A stretch of 64,000 nt of DNA, taken from contig JAESPV010000065.1 in the NCBI GenBank assembly GCA_016765495.1, positions 1 through 64,000 of the forward strand, written 5' to 3'. Each line of letters begins with the position of its first letter. The stretch's first letter is position 1. Below the pieces are notes generated by a model, which saw nothing but the letters and a program-made list of their open reading frames with translations, was not told the DNA's origin and did not search any database. The position numbers were made by a program, and so were the translations under genes. Source of the DNA: Desulfocapsa sp. (GTDB lineage Bacteria; Desulfobacterota; Desulfobulbia; Desulfobulbales; Desulfocapsaceae). This document shows, in pieces, positions 3,111 to 33,723 of this stretch.

Positions 3111-6100
3111 TTATTCCATCAGCTCAAAATCCTGCGAGGACTCCTCGCCGCCATTCCTCTCTTCCTGGGTATCCACATCTTCGGCAGAACTAAATAGCGG
3201 ATTTAACAGATGAGCAGGTAAGCCCAGTGTACGAAAAAACATGGCAAAAGGTGTGGTGGCCACTTCCTTAAACGTTGAGTGCTCCACATCAGGGTTATCC
3301 AGATCTCCTGAGACTTTGACGGTGATGGAGGGGTGTTTCTTTTTCCCAACAAGAATATATCCGACCAAAGGAATCTTGCTGATATTCTTTTTTGCCCGGG
3401 TGATCAGATTTAAATCCATACCAATCTGTTTTTTCACAAAATCTATCCACCCGGAACCTGTGATACTGATTTCAGGTGATTCGATGTTCAATGAATCAAC
3501 GGTTCCCAAGCCATTTTTTACTGACATACCGGCAACAAATGAATCCACCGACAATCCATGTAAACTGTAGGATGGAAGATTAAACGTTATAGGAGCCGGG
3601 ATGGTATTGATCATGGCAAGAATATTGTTCAATGTCACGAAATTCTTCATAACAGTGTCCTTCATTTTCAGTGCCACTGAATATTCGTCATAGGTTCCCT
3701 TGGCGACCACGTCCAGGGTTCCCTCTTCAAACTCCGATCCAGGGGTCAGAGCTGCCATAAAAGTATCGTTGAGATTTTCTCCGGTCAGCGAGAAGTTCTC
3801 TCCTTCAATAGTTAGCGCAACAGTACCGGCACCATGTTCAATATGCACTTTCGTGCTGCCAGCCAGATACTCAAGAGTAAGCTGGTCTGAAAGCACCATC
3901 CTGTCAGGTGTAAGTATGAGGCCACCTCCCCTTGCCTCAAGAGTGCAATGCAGTTCATCTCTAACGATGGAATCTTTATCTGCGAACTGAGATATATCCT
4001 TCAATAATTGGACAATTTCCGGAATATTAAAAAAGACATCATTTGCAGAGATGGATAATTTCTCTTTATAGAGCAGATGAACATCTTTATTCAATGTGGC
4101 AGAAACGCCGTGATCACCTACCTGCCCGTATAGAGTATAGCGGTTAAGCGGCTTTCCATCTTTGACCAGCAAGGCGTATCGATACGGGATGTCGGCGAAA
4201 AAACTATACAACTCCCCACCATCTCCTGATGCAACTACAAAACTGCCGCTATCCACCATATACTTCTGCAATAGTGGAGAATACTTATAAGTAGCGCTGA
4301 GATCGTTGAACATAAGAGACCAGCTTTTTCCCACATCAGGTCCATATCCTGAACTTCTGAACTCAACAGCAAGCTCAGGACTCCTCAGCAAGAGACGCCC
4401 TCCTTCGCCATCTACCTGAAGAGAGACAGTATCCGATGGAGTTAAAAAATGTCCTCCATTTTCGTTCTGAATATCAAGGCCTTCAAGATAAAAAAGACCT
4501 TGCCTGGATGTCTGATTGTATTGACCCGAGATACTACTCTCAAAAACATTCCCGTAACTAATCGTGGTGGTGTTTATAGAATAATTATTTTCAGAAAAAA
4601 GCAGTTCTGACGGGGAAAGTATTATTGGAACAGTATGCAAAATCCATTCGGACTTCCCCTCACTTCGAACCAACAAGCCATCATTGTACTGAATTGTCAA
4701 TGGCCCGTCGTACTTGATAAGTTGCAGATTATTAAAGTGGTACTTGAGACGATTCGCCTGCAGATCAACCGTCTGATCATTTATGGAAAATCTTCCTGAT
4801 ATTTTTGCAGAACGTCCTGGCGGAATAGAAATCATGGCAGGTTCGAGTTCTCCAGAAAGCTCCTCAAGAGAAAAAGACGTACTAAACTCCCCTAATTGCA
4901 ACGGCAAAACATCAAGTTTCCACGAAGACGCACTGCCCGTTATCCTGGAGCCATCGGGTCGCATTGTATAATGAAAGCTGGGACTTGCCACCTTTTCATC
5001 GAGTACCAGTAAGGATTCTCCAATGAAGACGGAAGCATCCTGCAAGCTGATATCAAAGTCTCCCGTCTGTTTTTCCGCATCAAACACACCTGTGACATCA
5101 GCTGTGAACAGCTCTGCAAAACTGACGTTCAGCTGCCTTAGCGTAACAAGCGTGTCCGTAAGCTCAATCACTCCTTTTTTAACTTCGTAACTTTTCTGAC
5201 AATAATCAACACGTCCCTCGTCAACTTTAAACGTTCCATGGGCTGTGACCGACTCATTATCTAAATTAACGGTAAGAATTAAATCAGCAGCAGTTTTTCC
5301 TTCCGTCTGCATAAAAGGTAAGAGAATATCATAATATTTGAGAAGGTTTACAATATCCTGGTTTGCTTGAGCATGGGTGAGGATATGGGCAGTGAGAAGA
5401 ATATTGGATGGATCATTGAAGTTAATATCCAGCCAGGAATCTTCTGTGTCCTGTCCATAAAATGTTGCATCATGGGGCCTTATAACGAGCACACCTTTTT
5501 CAAAAATCACATTGGTATAATCACTTTTTATTGCTTCTAATCCAGATGCAAAGGTGTACTCGCCTCCTTCAACCCGAACCTCAGCGTAAAAACTTTCAAG
5601 CAGATGTAGAGGATTATCCCATGGGAAATTGCCCTTAAATGTTTTCAGTTCGTAACGACTTCCCGTAAGATAGTCGGTGATCCATTGTTGTATATCTTTA
5701 CTAAGTCCAAAAAGATCTACAAATGGGGTTATTGTCGTGATTATACCATTTTCCCGTCCCTGGAAAGAAAGCTGCTTTTCATCCAAAGTGAAATCAAGAA
5801 TCACAGGTAGAGAACCCGCAATCATTGCTGTACCCTGTCCGCTGCCGGACTTTTCCTGCAGGTCAAATTGAAACTTTCCGGAGGCCTGAGAATGGTACTG
5901 GCCACTTCTTAACTCTTTTATCTCAATATCCAGTTTACCCTCTTCCAGCTTGAGAATTGCGCGCCCGTCAAACAGAGAAGAGAAGAAATTGAGTGTGCAC
6001 AAAGAGGATTCATACAAGAGATCGCCACTTATTTCATCAACCCGAATTTTCTCAATGGATATCGTTGAAAAGAGACGATCAATCCATTGAAAAAGTGGCA

Positions 6101-21576: not shown

Positions 21577-23301
21577 CTAATTGTCGGTTGGACCATCAAT
21601 ACCACCAGTCCTCTTAATTGTATCCAATTCCTCCCATAGATCCTCCACCCATTGATATCGCTTATTGATATCATAGGATAAAGCCTTCAGAATAATGTGT
21701 TCCAAAGATGTTGATAAACCAGACCGATAGATTCTAGGAGTGTCAATCTGCTCTTTGTGCTGCATCCATTTCTGTGTAGATCTTCTTTTTTGAGTAAAAG
21801 GCAGGTGACCCGTTGCTGCAAGATAAAGAAGAAGACCAAGTCCATAAATATCACTGCGCGGATCGCCACGCTTCCCCTGAATCTGTTCCGGTGCAAGATA
21901 CAACAGATCCCCCTGAGGACCAAGGCCTGCTGCCACTATGGGATCCTGCAGTTGATCGCTTGAAGCTAGTCCCATATCAATAAGAATCACCTGCTGTTTC
22001 TCATCCAGCATCAAAATCTGTGGTCGAAGATCATGATGGACAATTCCAGCAGCATGAATGGTTGCGACCAGGTCACATAGCTGAGAAAAAACATGCAGGA
22101 GAAGCTTATCATCCAACGGTCCTTTGTTGCAAAGATGAAAAAGACTTCTTCCCCGAACTTCCGCAAGAACCAAAACATCTTCCACACGTTCCTGCAAAAG
22201 CGGCAGGCATGGATGTGTCAATGTCTCAAACAGGTGTAATTCTGTTTCAAAACAGGAGCGATATAGAGGGTTTTGCAGTACATCATCAAAACCGATTTTA
22301 AGAGATACTTTCTCATGCGATTCTATTGCACGGCCGCTATACATCCAGGACATGGCACCGGCAGCAATCGGCGCGTTCACAACATAGTCCCCGATGAAAT
22401 TCGGCTGCAGAGAGGAGCCCTTACGAGCGGAACGTACATAACTACGTAAAGAACCAAGGGAAGCACGCAGAACATCGAGTTCATCGCCAATGGTTACCAT
22501 ACCACTTTTTTCTTTTCCTTTTTGAGCCACAAGAGAAAGCATCGCACTAAGACGTTCAATAACCAGGCGCTGGAAGAGCAGAGTTAAAAGCCATAACAGG
22601 AAAAGACTTCCACTGAGTGTGATCCCGAAAAGAACGAGACTTCCCTGCCAGGCTTCACGCAATGAATCGGAGACTGGAATTGCAACAGAATTGATACCTG
22701 CCAGATCTCCAGCTTTAAATCGGAACCCGCCATCCATTCCGTAACGATCCGTCAACTCCTTTGGTGCCTGTTCTGCTCTTCCGTGGCAACGAATACAGGA
22801 CGATTCAAAATAATCAGGAACCATGGACACAAAAAAAGAATCTCCATTTTTTTTTACTATTCCCTGCCAGAACAGACGAGTGGAATCTTCCTCAAACCAG
22901 TCCAACATTTCTTCCTCAAAGGGATCAGCCAAATTCCTGGGATTATGCGGGTTAAGCGAGGCCCTTCGATACATATAATGAGGCATGCTCATGGCAAATC
23001 GTTCCATGATATTTATACTGATATAAGTGGTGGACATCGCCTCAATAATGAAAGTATCCTTACCATGCAACTCATACATCTTAGGCCGTAATTCCTCTTT
23101 CACATACGAACGGATGGCCTCAACTTCCCGAAGGATCACTTCAGACTTGGTCATGGCATCGGCCATAAGAAGTCTCCGGGTATTCCAAAAAGAAATTACA
23201 GAGAGGAGTAACCCCCCGCCGATTAAAAGAAGAGCGGACCAGAGCAGAAAACGCTGTTTCAGATTGGGGGTTTCCTTCTGCCCATGTGGTTTGGTTTTCA
23301 T
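21577..23301 (-). CDS. DUF3365 heme-type sensor fused to a Hanks (Ser/Thr) kinase-like domain
   Basis: 574 residues. N-terminal helix (17-38), periplasmic DUF3365/Tll0287-like domain (about 45-215) with heme-binding motif C169-I-R-C172-H173, a second helix (220-243), linker, then a kinase-fold domain (304-556). Lys335 and the HxD Asp424 are present, but the Mg-binding Asn five residues later is Ile429, DFG reads D442-M-G, and the glycine loop is degenerate. The domain may be a pseudokinase or a weak kinase. ATG 23301 has AGGAG six bases upstream. It follows a metallophosphoesterase gene by 17 bp and resembles the sensor half of the histidine kinase at 29820. Confidence 0.85.
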   Translation of the reverse strand: MKTKPHGQKETPNLKQRFLLWSALLLIGGGLLLSVISFWNTRRLLMADAMTKSEVILREVEAIRSYVKEELRPKMYELHGKDTFIIEAMSTTYISINIMERFAMSMPHYMYRRASLNPHNPRNLADPFEEEMLDWFEEDSTRLFWQGIVKKNGDSFFVSMVPDYFESSCIRCHGRAEQAPKELTDRYGMDGGFRFKAGDLAGINSVAIPVSDSLREAWQGSLVLFGITLSGSLFLLWLLTLLFQRLVIERLSAMLSLVAQKGKEKSGMVTIGDELDVLRASLGSLRSYVRSARKGSSLQPNFIGDYVVNAPIAAGAMSWMYSGRAIESHEKVSLKIGFDDVLQNPLYRSCFETELHLFETLTHPCLPLLQERVEDVLVLAEVRGRSLFHLCNKGPLDDKLLLHVFSQLCDLVATIHAAGIVHHDLRPQILMLDEKQQVILIDMGLASSDQLQDPIVAAGLGPQGDLLYLAPEQIQGKRGDPRSDIYGLGLLLYLAATGHLPFTQKRRSTQKWMQHKEQIDTPRIYRSGLSTSLEHIILKALSYDINKRYQWVEDLWEELDTIKRTGGIDGPTDN

Positions 23302-23318
23302 AGACAACTCCTGATGGA

Positions 23319-24059
23319 TCAGGTTCCTTTAAGTAAACGTCTGCCAAGTGCTAAAGGGAGACCGGCAGCACCGATGGACTGTGTTGTTTTTTCAATATCA
23401 TAACCGACCCGATAAAACTCCAGCACCTGTTTTCCAATATCAAAAATAAGGTAGCAGGAACGAGGGTCTTTATCCCTTGGCTGACCGACACTTCCGCAGT
23501 TGACAATACGACGTTTTTTATCTTTAACTGCAATCTTCTGTGAGCCGGATACCGCATAAATGTCGGTTGAGAAAAAGTGCTTTCTCGTGATAATCAGCGG
23601 ACTGTGACTATGTCCAATGAAGAGGTAGCGACAACGGGTAGCTGCAAAACTCCGTAATGCGTACTTACGATCCATCACATAACGCCAACCTCTCGGATTA
23701 TAGGGGTTGGCATGGACAAATGTCATGTTCAAAAGATCAAGGCGATCAGGTAATCCTGCCAGGTATTTTTTGTTTTCATCACTTAATTGCCCCATTGTCC
23801 AGAGAATGGCTTCCTTGGCAGCTGTTGACATGCCATAGGGAGATGTTTCCCAAAGTGTTGCCACATCATGATTCCCGGCAATGCAACGACATTTCTTCAG
23901 ATTACGAACCAACTCAATACACTCATTGGGATTGGGACCATAGCCCACCAGATCGCCAAGAGAGATGCTTCTGTGTACATTCCGCTTTGCAGCATCCTCA
24001 AGCACCCCCTGCAAAGCCTCAAGATTACCATGAACATCTGAAAAAACCATTAACCGCAT
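23319..24059 (-). CDS. Metallophosphoesterase (YfcE/MJ0936-like)
   Basis: 246-residue calcineurin-like phosphoesterase with the full set of metal motifs: DVHGN near residue 8, GDLVGYGPNP, GNHD, GHSH, and the terminal NCGSVGQPRD. Its ATG follows directly on the stop codon of the kinase gene (24060), giving zero spacing, so the two are probably co-translated. A phosphatase next to Hanks-type kinase genes could reverse their phosphorylation, but YfcE-like enzymes often act on phosphodiesters, so this remains inference. Confidence 0.85.
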   Translation of the reverse strand: MRLMVFSDVHGNLEALQGVLEDAAKRNVHRSISLGDLVGYGPNPNECIELVRNLKKCRCIAGNHDVATLWETSPYGMSTAAKEAILWTMGQLSDENKKYLAGLPDRLDLLNMTFVHANPYNPRGWRYVMDRKYALRSFAATRCRYLFIGHSHSPLIITRKHFFSTDIYAVSGSQKIAVKDKKRRIVNCGSVGQPRDKDPRSCYLIFDIGKQVLEFYRVGYDIEKTTQSIGAAGLPLALGRRLLKGT

Positions 24060-26003
24060 TTAATCGTCTCCTCTTGCACTTGACAGTGAGGACCTGACAT
24101 TGTCCCTTTTTATCATAACACCGAGATCCTGGTCGAGGTTGAATGCGCGCAACAGAGGGCCATAACATGCCATATTCTGTGTGATAACAGGACAGGACAC
24201 ATCAGCCAGAAAGGGAACTGGAGGAGGCTCGTGCTCAAGTTGTGAGCGTAAAGTCAAGGATACTTGCCCAAGTTCTTTTTTCAATTCACAGGAGAGTGGT
24301 AAAGACTCAAGAGTGTAGAGATTCTGCAGACCTGCGTGATCATGCGGATGAAGCGCTGCCATTTTCGCTGCAACCTCATGAAATCGCAGGTGGATAGAGC
24401 CAAGCTCTGCCATTATCTGCGACCAGTTTCCGGAATCCTCAAGTGAAAGAAGAAACTGTCCAAACTTGCAGTTATCCTCACTCAAATCGATTTCCCGTTC
24501 GGGATAGAGAAGCAACTGGTAGATAAAATCTGTATGATAGTGGAGATGTTCAAACCAGAGGTCAACCAGAAAAATATCACAGGACAGCATCTGTTGTTCT
24601 GTTAATTGTCCTGGCTGTAGATCTTTTAAGTCAGTAGCTGGTACAAACTGTTCTTCGGCCGCAACCACAACCTGGCAAGAACATGCTTTTTCCCTTTCAA
24701 GACGATGCTGCACCGACGCACCACGCAACAAGCTCTTTTTTTTCCTGGATGTACCAAGAACCAGTAATTCTGCACCCAGGCTTTCACTCAGCATTCCCAG
24801 AACTTCAACAAGGTCTCCACGAATGAGGCGAATACCTGGGTCAATGCTGAAACGACGCAGATTCTGGACACTACGTTCAAACTCCGCCATCAACTGCTCA
24901 CCTTCAACAGTAAAACTATAGGTCGTATGAGCATCACTCTCTTCTTCAATTACATAAACCAAGGTGACTTCAGCAGACCGAATAAGCGCCTGTTTCCTCA
25001 CCTCATTCAACATATTGGCACTTGTAAAAGAATCACTCAGTGCACCAATAATCTGGGGTTTACTTTCTGATACTCTTGTTTTCTTGTGTTTTGTTCCGAC
25101 TTTCTGAATAGCTTTGCCTGGAAAGAGGCGCTGCCACAGAGAAGGCCTTTTACTGGCCCTACCCACTGTTGTGACAGGAAGCTGCTGCCAGCATTTCAAA
25201 TCATTCTGCATCTCTTTGATGGATGAATAGCGTTCCCCGGCATGACGTGAAATAGCACGGAGTATAATCGACTGAATCTGCGGAGGTATTTCCGGGTTAT
25301 AATAACGTGGCGGATCAGGATCATGACGCAGACGACGATGCGCTACCTGAATGTTACTGGAACGTGGCCAGGGCAGCTGACCGGTGAGCATCTCGTAAAA
25401 GAGCATCCCCATGGAATAGATATCACACCGCGGGTCGAATCGTTCGCCAAGCAGTTGTTCCGGGGCGATATACCATGGAGTTCCCTGGGGATTCCGAAGA
25501 TCAATAGCGAGAAGATCGGGAAGATCCTGACAACTGGCCAGACCAAAATCAATCAATTTAATTGTGGAATCCTTGAGACAGAATATATTTTCAGGTTTTA
25601 AATCCAGATGAACGATGGACTGCTTATGAAGGTATCCCACCACCTCGCAAATATTGTTCATCAGGGCCAGGGCATCATGAAGTTCAAGTTTGCGATTCCG
25701 GCCCACTTGGGATCGAAGATCCTTTCCGGATAGTTTCTCCATGATAATGTACTGCCTGCTTCTTTGCCGGTGTATAAAACGTACAATTCCAGGATGATCA
25801 AGCAGTCTGCTTATTCGCTCTTCATTCTGGTAGTGGTAAAGAATGATGGGCTGATTAAGAATATCCCCGCAGGGAATTTTTAGCACAACTTCTTCACGGG
25901 AAAGCTGATCTTCGGCCAGAAAAAGACAGGTCAAGGCTCCATCATGGAGCTTGGCAGTCAGGATGAAAATATCCAAAGAGTCACCAACTTCTGGAAAAAC
26001 CAT
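24060..26003 (-). CDS. Hanks-type Ser/Thr kinase - Usp - CZB-like fusion
   Basis: 647 residues, cytosolic. Residues 1-275 form an apparently complete kinase: Lys42, catalytic H132-L-D134-LKPEN139, DFG 152-154, APE 180-182. Residues about 316-449 are a UspA-type nucleotide-binding domain (VLGTSRKKKSLLRGASVQH). Residues about 476-548 resemble a CZB zinc-binding domain: His-rich first helix (WFEHLHYHTD), then EDNCKFGQF (Cys512) and SIHLRFHEVA (His538, His542). The tail is unassigned. GGAGGG nine bases upstream decides for ATG 26003. It is followed with no gap by the phosphoesterase. Confidence 0.85.
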   Translation of the reverse strand: MVFPEVGDSLDIFILTAKLHDGALTCLFLAEDQLSREEVVLKIPCGDILNQPIILYHYQNEERISRLLDHPGIVRFIHRQRSRQYIIMEKLSGKDLRSQVGRNRKLELHDALALMNNICEVVGYLHKQSIVHLDLKPENIFCLKDSTIKLIDFGLASCQDLPDLLAIDLRNPQGTPWYIAPEQLLGERFDPRCDIYSMGMLFYEMLTGQLPWPRSSNIQVAHRRLRHDPDPPRYYNPEIPPQIQSIILRAISRHAGERYSSIKEMQNDLKCWQQLPVTTVGRASKRPSLWQRLFPGKAIQKVGTKHKKTRVSESKPQIIGALSDSFTSANMLNEVRKQALIRSAEVTLVYVIEEESDAHTTYSFTVEGEQLMAEFERSVQNLRRFSIDPGIRLIRGDLVEVLGMLSESLGAELLVLGTSRKKKSLLRGASVQHRLEREKACSCQVVVAAEEQFVPATDLKDLQPGQLTEQQMLSCDIFLVDLWFEHLHYHTDFIYQLLLYPEREIDLSEDNCKFGQFLLSLEDSGNWSQIMAELGSIHLRFHEVAAKMAALHPHDHAGLQNLYTLESLPLSCELKKELGQVSLTLRSQLEHEPPPVPFLADVSCPVITQNMACYGPLLRAFNLDQDLGVMIKRDNVRSSLSSARGDD

Positions 26004-26160
26004 GCTAAAAGCCCTCCATTTTAGGACAGGTCTACTCAGAAATGCTTTACGGATACTATTTCCTGGCATTGCACAAAGGCAGGTTGCACAGGAAGCTTTA
26101 CAGCGATTTATTCAGCCGACTTAAAGATACTGACAAGAAAGGTCCGTTACTTCTGCCCCA

Positions 26161-26723: not shown

Positions 26724-27197
26724 CTATGGCGCTATAAGAAGCGGACATGGTAACAGTGGATGCAAGTCTTTATTTTTCATGGTATCCCGCAAACCCATCC
26801 TTGTGCTGTGTATGGAGAATTTTTTAGGCTTGCACCAGGGTCCAATAACAATCAGATCACAGCCAAGTGTTTTAGCAGCTTTTGCAATGGTTTGAGCTAT
26901 ATTTCCTGTGCTCTGCAGAAATTCTACACGTTCTGCAACCGGATAGCTTGTTTTAATCCGTTGCCACTCTTCTGCTATTTCTTCATTCATCTGATTTTCA
27001 ACATGGTCAAGAAAAGTGGTGTGGGTCTTGCTCGAATTAAGCCAGTCATCACCAGTCATCCCACGCCAGTCTTCATCAAGTACCGTGAGTACACTAACCT
27101 TAAGGTTGGGATCATTTTCCAATTTTTCAAAAACAAAAGCCTCTGCTTTTTTGGCACCATCAGAACCATGGGTACAGAGGAGGACATTTGTAAACAT
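26724..27197 (-). CDS. Universal stress protein (UspA family)
   Basis: 157-residue UspA-fold protein, a small cytosolic stress/nucleotide-binding protein. The N-terminal NVLLCTHGSDGAKKAEAFVF and the late DLIVIGPWCK...R-x-G-x-LRDTM segment follow the family pattern. It heads an apparent operon with the tail-anchored hypothetical protein and the kinase-Usp-CZB gene, directly downstream of the terminator-like hairpin. Confidence 0.85.
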   Translation of the reverse strand: MFTNVLLCTHGSDGAKKAEAFVFEKLENDPNLKVSVLTVLDEDWRGMTGDDWLNSSKTHTTFLDHVENQMNEEIAEEWQRIKTSYPVAERVEFLQSTGNIAQTIAKAAKTLGCDLIVIGPWCKPKKFSIHSTRMGLRDTMKNKDLHPLLPCPLLIAP

Positions 27198-29570: not shown

Positions 29571-29619
29571 TTTAAAGTTTCCCCTGTGGTTTTTTTTGAT
29601 TGATCATTCTTCTACACAA

Positions 29620-29635
29620 TGCAAACTGTGTTCCT
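29620..29635 (-). promoter_or_regulatory. Sigma-54 promoter of the YeiH operon
   Basis: Minus-strand AGGAACACAGTTTGCA has GG and GC separated by exactly 10 bp, matching TGGCAC-N5-TTGCA at the invariant bases and the TTGCA half. Predicted start is near 29609, about 40 bp before ATG 29570. A possible activator site, GTGCA-N10-TGCAC (29731-29750), lies about 100 bp upstream. An NtrC-family activator is encoded about 2.7 kb away, divergently. Confidence 0.65.
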
Positions 29636-29819
29636 GATTGCAGCAAAAACAGTTATTCTAAATAAGTTACCATTATTGCAGCACCATCAGTCAAATTGCA
29701 TTGACGAAATACAGCAAATTCACAAGAATGGTGCATCCTTCCGTTTGCACATGGATACAGAACGTGTATACTCATGGAAGCAGTATGCTTTTTTCGATAT
29801 ACAATCTGGGAGTTCTACA

Positions 29820-32312
29820 ATGAAAGATATTATCCGGGATCTGGCCGACAAGGATCAGCATAATCTCAAACGGCAATTTCAAGTGGGATTAGGCATTATA
29901 CTCTTCTGTTTCTGCCTCTTTACAACGACCATCATCTATCATTTCCAGAAAAACCTGCTTGAAGAGGAGACCTTCAGACAAACCGAACTGGTTATGACTT
30001 CTCTGGAATCGACACGCAGTTACATCCGCGAAGTATTGCGGCCACGCATGTATGAGGAACTGGACGAGGATCAGTTTATCATTGAAGCCATGTCCACCTC
30101 CTACATAACCCGGGTTATCATGGATCGTTTCAAAGAAGCGCTGCCAGCCTTCAAGTATCGGCGGACAGCCATAGGTGCAAGAAATCCAGGCTTTGAAGCA
30201 AATGCGCAGGAACGGAAAATGATAGAGTATTTTCGGGCGCACCCGCAGGAACAGGAATGGCATACCGTAAAACGACTGAACTCCGAACGATATTTTACCT
30301 TGTACCGCCCGGTTGTCTTCAATACGTCCTGTATGCATTGCCATGGAGAGCCTGAAAATGCGCCAGCAGCAATCAGCCAATCCTATGGAGAAATCCGCGG
30401 ATTTCATCGCAAGGTCGATGAAGTCGGAGGCATTCTTTCTCTTTCCATCCCGCTGGAAGAAGGTCTTACTCAAATATGGAACAGATCATTTCGGATGTTT
30501 GGAACCGTTCTCCTCCTGGCTCTACTGCTTTACTCGACGATCTGGCTTCTATTTCACCAGCTTATCATCACAAACCTGCGGGATCTTTTGACGCTTTTCC
30601 GTACAACTCTTGTCGCCAATGACAAACCCCCTGTCCCACAAAGCATGAAGGGGCACAAGGAGGAGCTGGAGGAGCTGTTTCGCAGTGCCAGAACCCTGGT
30701 GAAACATCTGCAGGAGAGCCGTTCACGACTGGTTGAGCATACCGACAATCTGGAGGTTATTGTCGCTGATCGGACAGAAGCGCTAAAACGCTCGGAAACC
30801 AGAGCAAGGCAACAGGTAAAAAAAAGAAACAAAGAGTTAATGCTGCACAACACCCTCACCGGTCTTATAACCAGTACGGACAACCTGCAAACCACTCTTC
30901 ACCAGGTACTCCATGAAACCCTGCACGTTATCCCGGCAAAAGGTGCTGGTATCTACCTCCTTGACACCAACGCAAACACCTATGTCCTGCAATGCGCAGA
31001 AAATTCCCCCATGCTTGCGCCGCAACAGCAAAAAATAGATCATGAGCAGATTAAAAGTATCCCATCGGAAAAATATGACATGCTCAATATTTCCATACCT
31101 CTCAGCTGCCGCAAGCGTCTTCTTGGCATTATGCTTATCACTGAACTCCGTTGTGAAATGTTAGACGATGCACTTCAGGAACTCCTTCTTTCCATAGGTC
31201 AGCAAATCGGACTCACCATAGAAAGTATGCAAAACATGCAGAACCTTCGTCAAAGCACAGAACTGCTTCAGTCTGTCTTTGACGGTATAAGTGATCCCCT
31301 GATTCTGCTCGCGCCTGATGGCAGTTTACAAATGGCCAATCAGAGTTTTTTGCTTCGACACAACTTGAATATGGGTGAAATCATTGGACAGTCTATTGAT
31401 GCCATTTCGTCAGTACAACAATGCCTTTTTAGTGGACAGCTGCAGGAACTTGATCTGCAGGAAGAAAAGCAACACACAAAAGACATTCAACTGGATGATG
31501 GATCTATTTTTGCTATCTCCTTCTATCCAATTTTAAATAAAGATCATTCAGTTCAAGCAATTATCTGTCTGGCAAAAGATGTGACAACCATCAAGGAAAC
31601 GGAACAGCGAATTCAACAGACAGAAAAACTCGTTGCCATAGGTCAGCTTGCAGCGGGTGTTGCACATGAGATCAACAACCCCCTTGGAGTTATTCTCTGT
31701 CATACAGATATTATAAAAGAAGCCAACAGGGATAACGAAGAAATCTATACTGACATCAGTACCATTGAGCGGCATGCGGAAAACTGTAAACGAATTGTTG
31801 CAGACCTGCTTGATTTTTCACGCAGCGGTAAATCCCGAATAGAACGACATCGCGGATCAGTTAATGAATCCATCGAAAGTGTTCTTTCAATGGTTGGGCA
31901 ACAATTCAAGAACAACCAGATCACCCTTACCTGTAATCTGGACAACAGTCTACCTCACTGCCTGATGGACAGCAGGCGAATTCAGCAGGTACTGGTGAAT
32001 CTGATTATGAATAGTGTGCATGCAGTTGGGAACAAAGGAAAGATCGCTATCACCACCCGGTCTGAAAACAACCATATACTCATAGAAATAGAAGATGATG
32101 GGCCGGGAATCAACAAAGAAATCCTGGACAAAATTTTTGATCCTTTTTTCAGCACCAAGGAACCCGGCCAGGGAACAGGTCTTGGCTTGTCTGTCAGCTA
32201 CGGAATCATCAGAGAACATGATGGTGAAATCAGAGTGCAGTCAGCACCCGGCAGCGGCTCACGTTTTACAATTATATTACCCATACCCAAAAAGAGCATA
32301 ACCAATGAATAA
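29820..32312 (+). CDS. DUF3365 heme-type membrane sensor histidine kinase
   Basis: 830 residues. N-terminal helix (22-42), periplasmic DUF3365 domain (about 50-215) with C171-M-H-C174-H175, second helix (227-247), HAMP-like linker and coiled coil, GAF (about 345-470), PAS (480-590), HisKA with H616 in VAHEINNP, HATPase_c with [14 protein letters not shown] and GTGLGL. The periplasmic domain shares long stretches with the kinase at 21577-23301 (for example FIIEAMST-x-YI). ATG 29820 is preceded by GGGAG; an in-frame ATG at 29619 would lie over the promoter of the divergent operon. The stop overlaps the regulator gene by 8 bp. Confidence 0.88.
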
Positions 32313-33723
32313 AAATGATCCCTCTCCCACCAGAATACTGCTTGTTGATGATGAACCGGATCTGCTCAGCGGCTTGAAACGAAGCTTTGCTAAGCGTCTT
32401 CCTGATGTAAATGTTCTTACTGCAGCCAGTGGCAATGAAGCTCTCGACATTCTGTCCGTGCAGGACGTTGCTTTAGTTCTAATGGATATCATGATGGGTG
32501 ACATGGATGGACTTGAAGCTCTTGATCGTATTCGCAGCAATGCACCTGATCAGACTGTTATCCTGATGACCGGATACGGCACCATAGAACTGGCCGTGGA
32601 TGCCATCCGCCGGGGGGCCTGGGATTTTGTAACCAAACCCCTGGAGCTTGACAATCTGACCAGAATACTTCAGAAAGGATTGGAACGTAGCAGACTCATT
32701 GAGGAAAACAAGGAATTGCGCAGCAAAATCAGCTCTGCCGGATCGGTTCCTGAATTTATTGGGCAAAGTCCTACCATGCAGCGACTCTACGAAACCATCA
32801 AGACTTCAGCAACCAGCGAATATACCGTTCTTATCCGGGGAGCATCCGGTACCGGTAAAGAGCTTTGTGCCAGAGCCATACATCGTCTCAGCCCACGATC
32901 AGCAAAACCTTTTATCATGGTAAACTGTCCGGCAATACCCGAAAACCTGCTTGAGTCGGAACTCTTTGGCTACTCAAAAGGGGCTTTTACAGGTGCCGAC
33001 AAAGACCACGCCGGGCTGTTCTCCCTGGCAAATGGCGGGACTCTCTGTTTAGATGAGATCGGTGACATTCCGGTCAATCTGCAGACAAAACTGCTGCGGG
33101 TTCTTCAGGAACAGGAAATAAAACCACTTGGAGCTGACACTTCAACTAAAATAGACGTGCGTATTATTGCCTCAACAAATGCTGACCTTGAGAAAAAGAT
33201 CACAGAAGGAAAATTTCGGGAGGATCTCTATTATCGTCTTGAAGTCCTTACCCTGCACATGCCCCCTCTTATCGAAATAACAGAAGACATTCCTCTTCTG
33301 GCAAACTTCTTTCTGAAGAAGGCAGGAGCCGAACTCAATGTCAGTGAAAAATCATTCTCAGAAACGGCACTTACCCCCCTGTTTCAGCATAATTGGCCAG
33401 GTAATATCAGAGAGTTGCAAAATGTTATTCGCCGGGCCGTTCTCTTCTGTCCGGGATCTGTAATTGATCAAAAACATTTAAAACTTGGGACCCCTCCACC
33501 GGCTCTCGGTACGACTATAAACCAGGATGCAGACAAGGAAATGATCCCTTACAAAGAAGCAAAAGAGAGTTGCCTTGATTCGTTTACTCGACAATATGTT
33601 CACCGCCTACTCAAGCAGTGTAATGGTAACATTTCTCAGGCCGCACGTTTATCAGACTTGACCAGGGCTGCTCTGCAAAAAATAATTCGGCGGTATGATA
33701 TTGATGGGAATCAATTTAGATAA
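32305..33723 (+). CDS. NtrC-family sigma-54-dependent response regulator
   Basis: 472 residues. Receiver domain with Asp61 (LMDIMMGD) and conserved Lys in VTKPLELD; AAA+ sigma-54 interaction domain with GASGTGKE, the RpoN-contacting GAFTGAD loop, DEIGDIP and the arginine-finger region; C-terminal Fis-type HTH (NISQAARLSDLTRAALQKII). It overlaps its histidine kinase gene, so the pair is translationally coupled. The obvious local target is the divergent YeiH operon. Confidence 0.93.
   Translation: MNKNDPSPTRILLVDDEPDLLSGLKRSFAKRLPDVNVLTAASGNEALDILSVQDVALVLMDIMMGDMDGLEALDRIRSNAPDQTVILMTGYGTIELAVDAIRRGAWDFVTKPLELDNLTRILQKGLERSRLIEENKELRSKISSAGSVPEFIGQSPTMQRLYETIKTSATSEYTVLIRGASGTGKELCARAIHRLSPRSAKPFIMVNCPAIPENLLESELFGYSKGAFTGADKDHAGLFSLANGGTLCLDEIGDIPVNLQTKLLRVLQEQEIKPLGADTSTKIDVRIIASTNADLEKKITEGKFREDLYYRLEVLTLHMPPLIEITEDIPLLANFFLKKAGAELNVSEKSFSETALTPLFQHNWPGNIRELQNVIRRAVLFCPGSVIDQKHLKLGTPPPALGTTINQDADKEMIPYKEAKESCLDSFTRQYVHRLLKQCNGNISQAARLSDLTRAALQKIIRRYDIDGNQFR

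Follow-up and report, generated by a model that had tools for sequence, protein, structure and literature searches.

CZB domains are known to sense zinc and oxidants in chemotaxis and c-di-GMP signalling. Their canonical ligand set consists of three His and one Cys (PMC8262984, PMC6715182). The architectures listed in a CZB survey number seven, namely soluble and membrane chemoreceptors, DGC, DGC-EAL, EAL, CheW and CZB-only proteins, with no Ser/Thr kinase among them (PMC8262984). A precedent is DgcZ, which is inhibited by zinc and released from this inhibition by HOCl (PMC8262984). According to the argument of a 2026 preprint, the free-zinc pool serves as a redox messenger which CZBs read (PMC13370339). 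Fusions of Usp domains with kinases are already known (PMC1262709). Tll0287 was described as a c-heme Cache domain which has the properties of an NO sensor in fusions with signalling outputs (PMC12889525, preprint).

Here, a locus of the sulfur-cycling bacterium Desulfocapsa sp. was analysed in a stretch of 64,000 nucleotides (the window). Judged from its sequence, the protein under study is a Hanks kinase followed by a Usp domain and then by a divergent CZB domain, and relatives of the host share this order. It is called KUC (kinase-Usp-CZB protein) in the following.

The KUC gene and its kinase domain

KUC is encoded on the minus strand at 24060..26003 (647 aa plus stop codon) and was delimited by its open reading frame, Pfam and an alignment of 34 family members. 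An upstream ATG at 26069 is an alternative start which would give 669 aa; residue numbers refer to the 647-aa version. Another small contig in this assembly (G000:C105:2-1084) is 100% identical to KUC residues 1-361 until the contig end cuts the copy, and this partial duplicate is probably assembly redundancy.

The Hanks kinase domain (25221..25940, minus strand; residues 22-261) was matched by the Pfam Pkinase profile with an E-value of 5.2e-40. Its predicted catalytic residues are K42, E61, H132-L-D134, K136, N139 and D152-F-G154. K42, E61, D134, K136, N139 and DFG were all kept in the 33 aligned members that contain the kinase part, which agrees with the original prediction of an active-looking kinase based on K42, D134, N139 and DFG. 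The catalytic loop reads HLD at 132-134 instead of HRD, so that KUC belongs to the non-RD kinases. Activation by loop phosphorylation need not apply to such kinases and thus need not apply to KUC. By eye, the glycine loop of the window copy is reduced, with G22 as the sole remaining glycine.

The Usp domain

The Usp domain comprises residues 319-442 (24678..25049, minus strand) and was assigned by Pfam and Foldseek. It matched PF00582 with an E-value of 1.3e-5 and 26.2 bits, above the cut-off of 24, and Usp structures headed the Foldseek list (best E 1.1e-3). The proposed UspA-type domain could thus be verified. The Pfam profile matched all 21 full-length members scanned, including one without a CZB domain; the match in L006 was below the cut-off with 19.3 bits. 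ATP-binding Usp domains carry the motif G-2x-G-9x-G-S/T. It was sought in the 34 aligned members, the window copy included, and found in none of them, so that the description of this domain as nucleotide-binding is unsupported.

Identity of the C-terminal domain

The putative CZB domain with a further helix covers residues 474-590 (24234..24584, minus strand), as delimited by profile searches, the family alignment and a predicted helical bundle. It is followed by a C-terminal tail (residues 593-647; 24063..24227, minus strand). According to the alignments, this tail (VPFL..CPV..ACYGPLL) is conserved in Desulfocapsa-type members and mostly absent from L089, L090 and L091. Its cysteines C604 and C613 are mostly conserved in the Desulfocapsa-type members.

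On its own, the window copy scored between 19.4 and 22.9 bits on the Pfam CZB profile PF13682 (E 1.4e-3 to 1.1e-4), which is under the curated cut-off of 29.4 bits. The whole protein gave 19.4 bits (E 1.4e-3) and the C-terminal part alone 21.6 bits (E 2.8e-4). When its own genome was scanned, KUC was the weakest of four CZB matches at E ≤ 1 (E 2.2e-4); the remaining three sit in two proteins that are chemoreceptor-like by eye.

Among the orthologous C-terminal regions, nine out of twelve matched CZB, and the sole other family listed was represented by one match at 0.3. The profile matched 16 of the 21 full-length members scanned. The misses were L013, L006 and L153, which have lost ligands, L016, in which the domain is absent, and L091, which has all four ligands and yet gave no match. 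L098 was the only one of the 21 above the cut-off (31.6 vs 29.4 bits) and L158 stayed just below it with 29.3 bits. Six distant members of the second family matched CZB profile positions 1 to 60-63 of 64, likewise below the cut-off. A family-wide scan at 0.01 gave no match for G010, though the G010 ortholog scanned alone matches CZB.

The family was also compared to CZB by profile-profile alignment with hhalign. Eighteen family members, the distant ones included, were aligned to 18 genuine CZBs of the same order with Prob 90.9 (E 1.2e-6); Prob did not exceed 6.3 in 200 column shuffles and was 0.29 for the reversed alignment. Restricting the family to its three most distant members gave 92.8, and to the 15 close ones 73.6; with twelve close orthologs alone, Prob was only 24 (E 8e-4). 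In the reverse direction, the KUC-family profile retrieved 46 rows beyond two family members from 395 genomes of the phylum, down to 2.7e-10. Of these loci, 28 were fetched and ten of the 28 scanned. All ten contained a Pfam CZB match, nine of them above the cut-off, and nine contained an MCP domain. A kinase motif was found in none of the 28 loci within the part fetched.

The C-terminal domain of KUC can thus be considered as a genuine though divergent CZB on profile evidence, and it is the family, not the window copy alone, that decides this. In the profile check against CZB on which the original prediction of a CZB-like region had been staked, the window copy by itself stayed under the cut-off and the family was recognised through hhalign, L098 and the reverse retrieval.

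Predicted structure

Two AlphaFold models, one of the C-terminal part and one of the full-length protein, were built from shallow five-row alignments and had weak mean pLDDT values of 52 and 40, respectively. In the full-length model, ten-residue blocks over about residues 461-600 reached a mean pLDDT of 60-87 and form a predicted helical bundle. Foldseek with the weak C-terminal model (pLDDT 52) gave no match at E ≤ 0.001, and no solved CZB, including 3t9o, was among the structure matches listed for either weak model. The best structural match of the bundle was the middle domain of DosC with Z 9.0 and 3.2 Å over 111 residues, a value in the range of common helical bundles. This DosC domain is not known to be a zinc domain, and a search of open-access PMC for DosC together with zinc found none. 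Searching the sequences of solved structures with the KUC C-terminal region or its profiles returned no CZB (best E 0.0094, 8w6e); the profile of the 18 genuine CZBs found DgcZ (3t9o) at 2.8e-4.

Predicted zinc ligands and their loss

The predicted CZB ligands of KUC are H486, C512, H538 and H542, a complete 3His/1Cys set. Their His-Cys-His-His spacing is 26, 26 and 4 residues, compared to 27-28, 26-33 and 4 in the 18 genuine CZBs. The segment CKFGQFL, which contains the Cys, obeys all positions of the published seven-residue CZB rule (PMC8262984). H486 is the first His of HLHYH and is a His in all twelve distant relatives; in six members of the second family it stands in HVSW, HVEW or HVAW. 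A first alignment had suggested the third His, H490, as ligand. This assignment was dropped, as it is H486 on which the distant members (HLN, HVSW or HVEW) align, and as columns 488 and 490 are variable, with 59% and 56% conservation in the 32 members. The proposed CZB pattern of a His-rich first helix, the stretch DNCKFGQF and an H-x3-H pair therefore holds as a ligand set, with the correction that the first helix contributes H486 only.

Ligands were counted in the 32 members with a complete C-terminal domain; L016, in which the domain is absent, and G635, which runs off its contig, were left out. All four ligands were kept in 23 members, three of which are distant (34-35% identity). The nine others read HCYQ (L006), QCHH (L009 and L010), HSHQ (L013), YSHQ (L014), QWFV (G626), QSFA (G153), HCHR (G614) and HCHQ (G186). 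None of the twelve most distant members deviates at H486, C512 or H538; ten of them also retain H542 and thus the full set of four. On a tree of 33 rows built from the kinase and Usp part, the broken state needs five changes, four of which are forced by well-supported branches. Outside the zinc site, D481, W483, Y563 and P569 are invariant in the 32 members.

The putative zinc site appears to be an ancestral feature which most members retained and which disappeared several times (about five). Strict selection on it was rejected, as nine of the 32 members are broken. Since these members have intact kinase residues, zinc is apparently not needed by every member, and the kinase residues being intact in 33 out of 33 members indicates that the zinc site is dispensable for the kinase. 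By this alignment evidence, zinc binding by the CZB domain is not a strict requirement of the KUC family.

Distribution of the family

A full-length KUC profile was run over 257 genomes of the class, with the best few candidates per genome (up to four) being scored. KUC members were found in 35 of them, the own genome included, and belong to two families of one order. The alignment contains 34 of these members, as G007, which ends at a contig end after 325 residues, was left out. Among 395 genomes of the phylum, scanned at E 1e-60 with up to three best candidates per genome scored, the full architecture occurred only in the own genome and in one genome of the same genus. Nine further genomes matched with the kinase part only, the tails of a 616- and a 710-aa frame aside. 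As these scans covered no more than three or four top candidates in each genome, and the 616- and 710-aa frames were compared without their tails, the absence of KUC outside the order carries little weight. Seven genomes of one family outside the class (L171-L177) have frames of 339-358 aa whose kinase part is the best match to KUC there; these frames are too short for a full Usp-CZB tail.

The gene cluster and its c-heme receptor

A calcineurin-like metallophosphoesterase (MPE), identified by Pfam, is encoded at 23319..24059 on the minus strand and starts at the base right after the KUC stop codon. After a gap of 11 bases it is followed by the gene of a membrane receptor with a Tll0287/sCache c-heme (CxxCH) domain and a Hanks domain (21577..23307, minus strand). 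On the other side of KUC, P195 (26161..26748, minus strand), a protein of 195 aa with a hydrophobic C-terminus by eye, and a stand-alone Usp protein (26724..27197, minus strand; Pfam) are encoded; both were recognised as part of the locus by synteny.

The surroundings of KUC were read in 23 genomes. The MPE adjoins KUC in 20 of 21 testable genomes (G635 and G613 are contig ends; it is absent in G214). The c-heme receptor is present in 17 of 20 testable genomes, with G208 also untestable, and is absent in G020, G216 and G214; in G207, it is split into two frames. Upstream of KUC, most loci of both families contain the Usp protein, P195 and a transporter of family PF03601 (YeiH-type). P195 matches no Pfam family; in both families of the order, it is conserved at its position between the genes of Usp and KUC. 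One KUC version, L092 in G012 (4259-5626, plus strand), stops right after the Usp domain and has the neighbouring cluster genes in place.

The receptor matched Tll0287 with 1.1e-36 and Pkinase with 4.3e-26 in Pfam. Its Hanks domain keeps the Lys and the catalytic Asp. Ile or Val takes the place of the catalytic-loop Asn, and DMG that of DFG, in each of the 14 orthologs aligned. Going by these substitutions, the kinase domain of the receptor is probably a pseudokinase.

A second Tll0287 c-heme sensor is encoded on the plus strand at 29619-33723, divergent from the KUC cluster. It is part of a histidine kinase and is followed by a sigma-54 response regulator. This histidine kinase flanks the KUC cluster in several relatives.

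Proposed mechanism and alternatives

We consider it fairly probable that KUC is a cytosolic Hanks Ser/Thr kinase of the non-RD type, apparently competent for catalysis, and that the C-terminal CZB domain sets its output via zinc or thiol redox. This proposal builds on features read from the gene sequences, namely which domains are present, that the ligand set is complete and the kinase residues are intact, that the cluster is conserved and that the partner has lost residues; from them we infer zinc binding, dimerisation, a direction of the switch, a substrate of the MPE and a role of the partner. As DgcZ is controlled by zinc and HOCl, the simplest transfer is that zinc on a CZB dimer would hold KUC in one state. 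Zn(2+) bound by H486, C512, H538 and H542 would fix one conformation of a helical-bundle dimer. Its loss, when free zinc falls or the C512 lid is oxidised, would alter the dimer and switch the kinase, with either sign. Instead of sensing ATP, the Usp domain may serve as a spacer, a dimer surface or a docking site. The MPE from the adjacent gene could oppose the kinase by stripping phosphates, and the c-heme receptor with its disabled kinase domain would probably bind KUC and add a periplasmic NO/redox input.

A different explanation, which is possible though we doubt it, is that the C-terminal bundle derives from a CZB and serves for dimerisation or docking, that any zinc in it is structural, and that partners such as the c-heme pseudokinase and the Usp proteins regulate the kinase. 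This would account for the roughly five separate ligand losses, four of them well supported, that left the kinase residues intact, for the invariance of D481, W483, Y563 and P569 outside the zinc site in 32 members and for the one member that keeps the gene cluster without a CZB domain. The DosC middle domain as best match of the predicted bundle, with a Z of 9.0 within the range of common bundles, is consistent with it. It fits less well with the 23 of 32 members that keep all four ligands, among them ten of the twelve most distant, in which H486, C512 and H538 are invariant.

That a nucleotide such as c-di-AMP or ATP controls the kinase chiefly via the Usp domain, with the CZB domain as an accessory, appears very unlikely. 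c-di-AMP does act via the Usp domain of a KdpD (PMC11018627), and Usp was matched in all 21 members scanned, including the one without CZB (L006 below the cut-off), but the nucleotide motif is absent from all 34 members; this is not conclusive, as the KdpD site may differ in kind. A chance resemblance between CZB and an unrelated helical bundle at the C-terminus is less credible still and was largely refuted by the profile tests. The low Pfam score of the window copy alone, the Prob of only 24 with twelve close orthologs and the Foldseek search of the C-terminal model, which gave nothing significant, would fit a chance likeness, but an ortholog (L098) lies above the CZB cut-off, the alignment of 18 members is far above shuffles (90.9 vs 6.3), the family profile retrieves CZB chemoreceptors and six distant members match nearly the entire CZB profile, below the cut-off.

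The cluster might tentatively be read as an undescribed two-compartment module, in which a membrane receptor with a periplasmic c-heme (NO/redox) domain and a pseudokinase output would allosterically drive or restrain a separate, active cytosolic kinase with its own zinc/redox CZB switch, accompanied by a dedicated phosphoesterase. Such a pseudokinase-kinase pair would compare the heme state outside with the zinc/thiol state inside. Pairings of a pseudokinase with a kinase occur in some eukaryotic receptor pairs.

A CZB domain on a Hanks kinase would extend zinc and oxidant sensing to Ser/Thr phosphorylation. KUC would provide a simple enzyme with a zinc/oxidant switch that is readable as autophosphorylation, and the natural orthologs in which ligands were lost, about five times separately, would be ready-made controls. 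As sulfide should control free zinc in hosts of the Desulfocapsa order, a zinc-gated kinase could report the sulfide/oxidant balance there.

Comparison with described systems

No Ser/Thr kinase with a CZB domain was found in the open-access PMC literature searched, and the order of a Hanks kinase, a Usp and then a CZB domain was described in none of the open-access PMC papers searched. The original prediction had regarded a kinase with both a Usp and a zinc-binding domain as new. This is in line with the seven surveyed CZB architectures (PMC8262984), among which no Ser/Thr kinase is listed; Usp-kinase fusions themselves are known.

The bacterial Ser/Thr kinases with a USPA domain (PMC1262709) share with KUC that kinase and Usp are parts of one polypeptide. 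One of the three cases presented there, from Nitrosomonas, has its Usp at the N-terminus and a kinase of the ABC1 type, whereas the Usp of KUC is central and followed by CZB; the word "zinc" occurs 0 times in the available text of that paper. KdpD, a tandem serine and histidine kinase, likewise uses Usp as a regulatory part of a kinase (PMC11018627). It differs from KUC in that its serine kinase is called atypical and lies in the KdpD domain, that its ligand is c-di-AMP and that the account given there describes no CZB.

The periplasmic c-heme domain of the cluster partner is common to the sCache_heme (Tll0287) receptors (PMC12889525, preprint). A figure legend of this preprint names HK, MCP, GGDEF, EAL and cyclase as outputs, and "protein kinase" and "Pkinase" occur 0 times in its available text. 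The pairing of Tll0287 with a probable Hanks pseudokinase (21577-23307) is absent from the outputs named there.

Like KUC, the diguanylate cyclase DgcZ of E. coli and the chemoreceptors TlpD/McpA have a 3His/1Cys CZB with the Cys in C-x-F/L-G-x-F/W, fused to a signalling output. In contrast to them, the output of KUC is a Hanks kinase and not GGDEF, MCP, EAL or CheW, its CZB is divergent and several of its family members have lost ligands. The nearest published mechanism for KUC is that of DgcZ with its zinc inhibition and oxidant relief.
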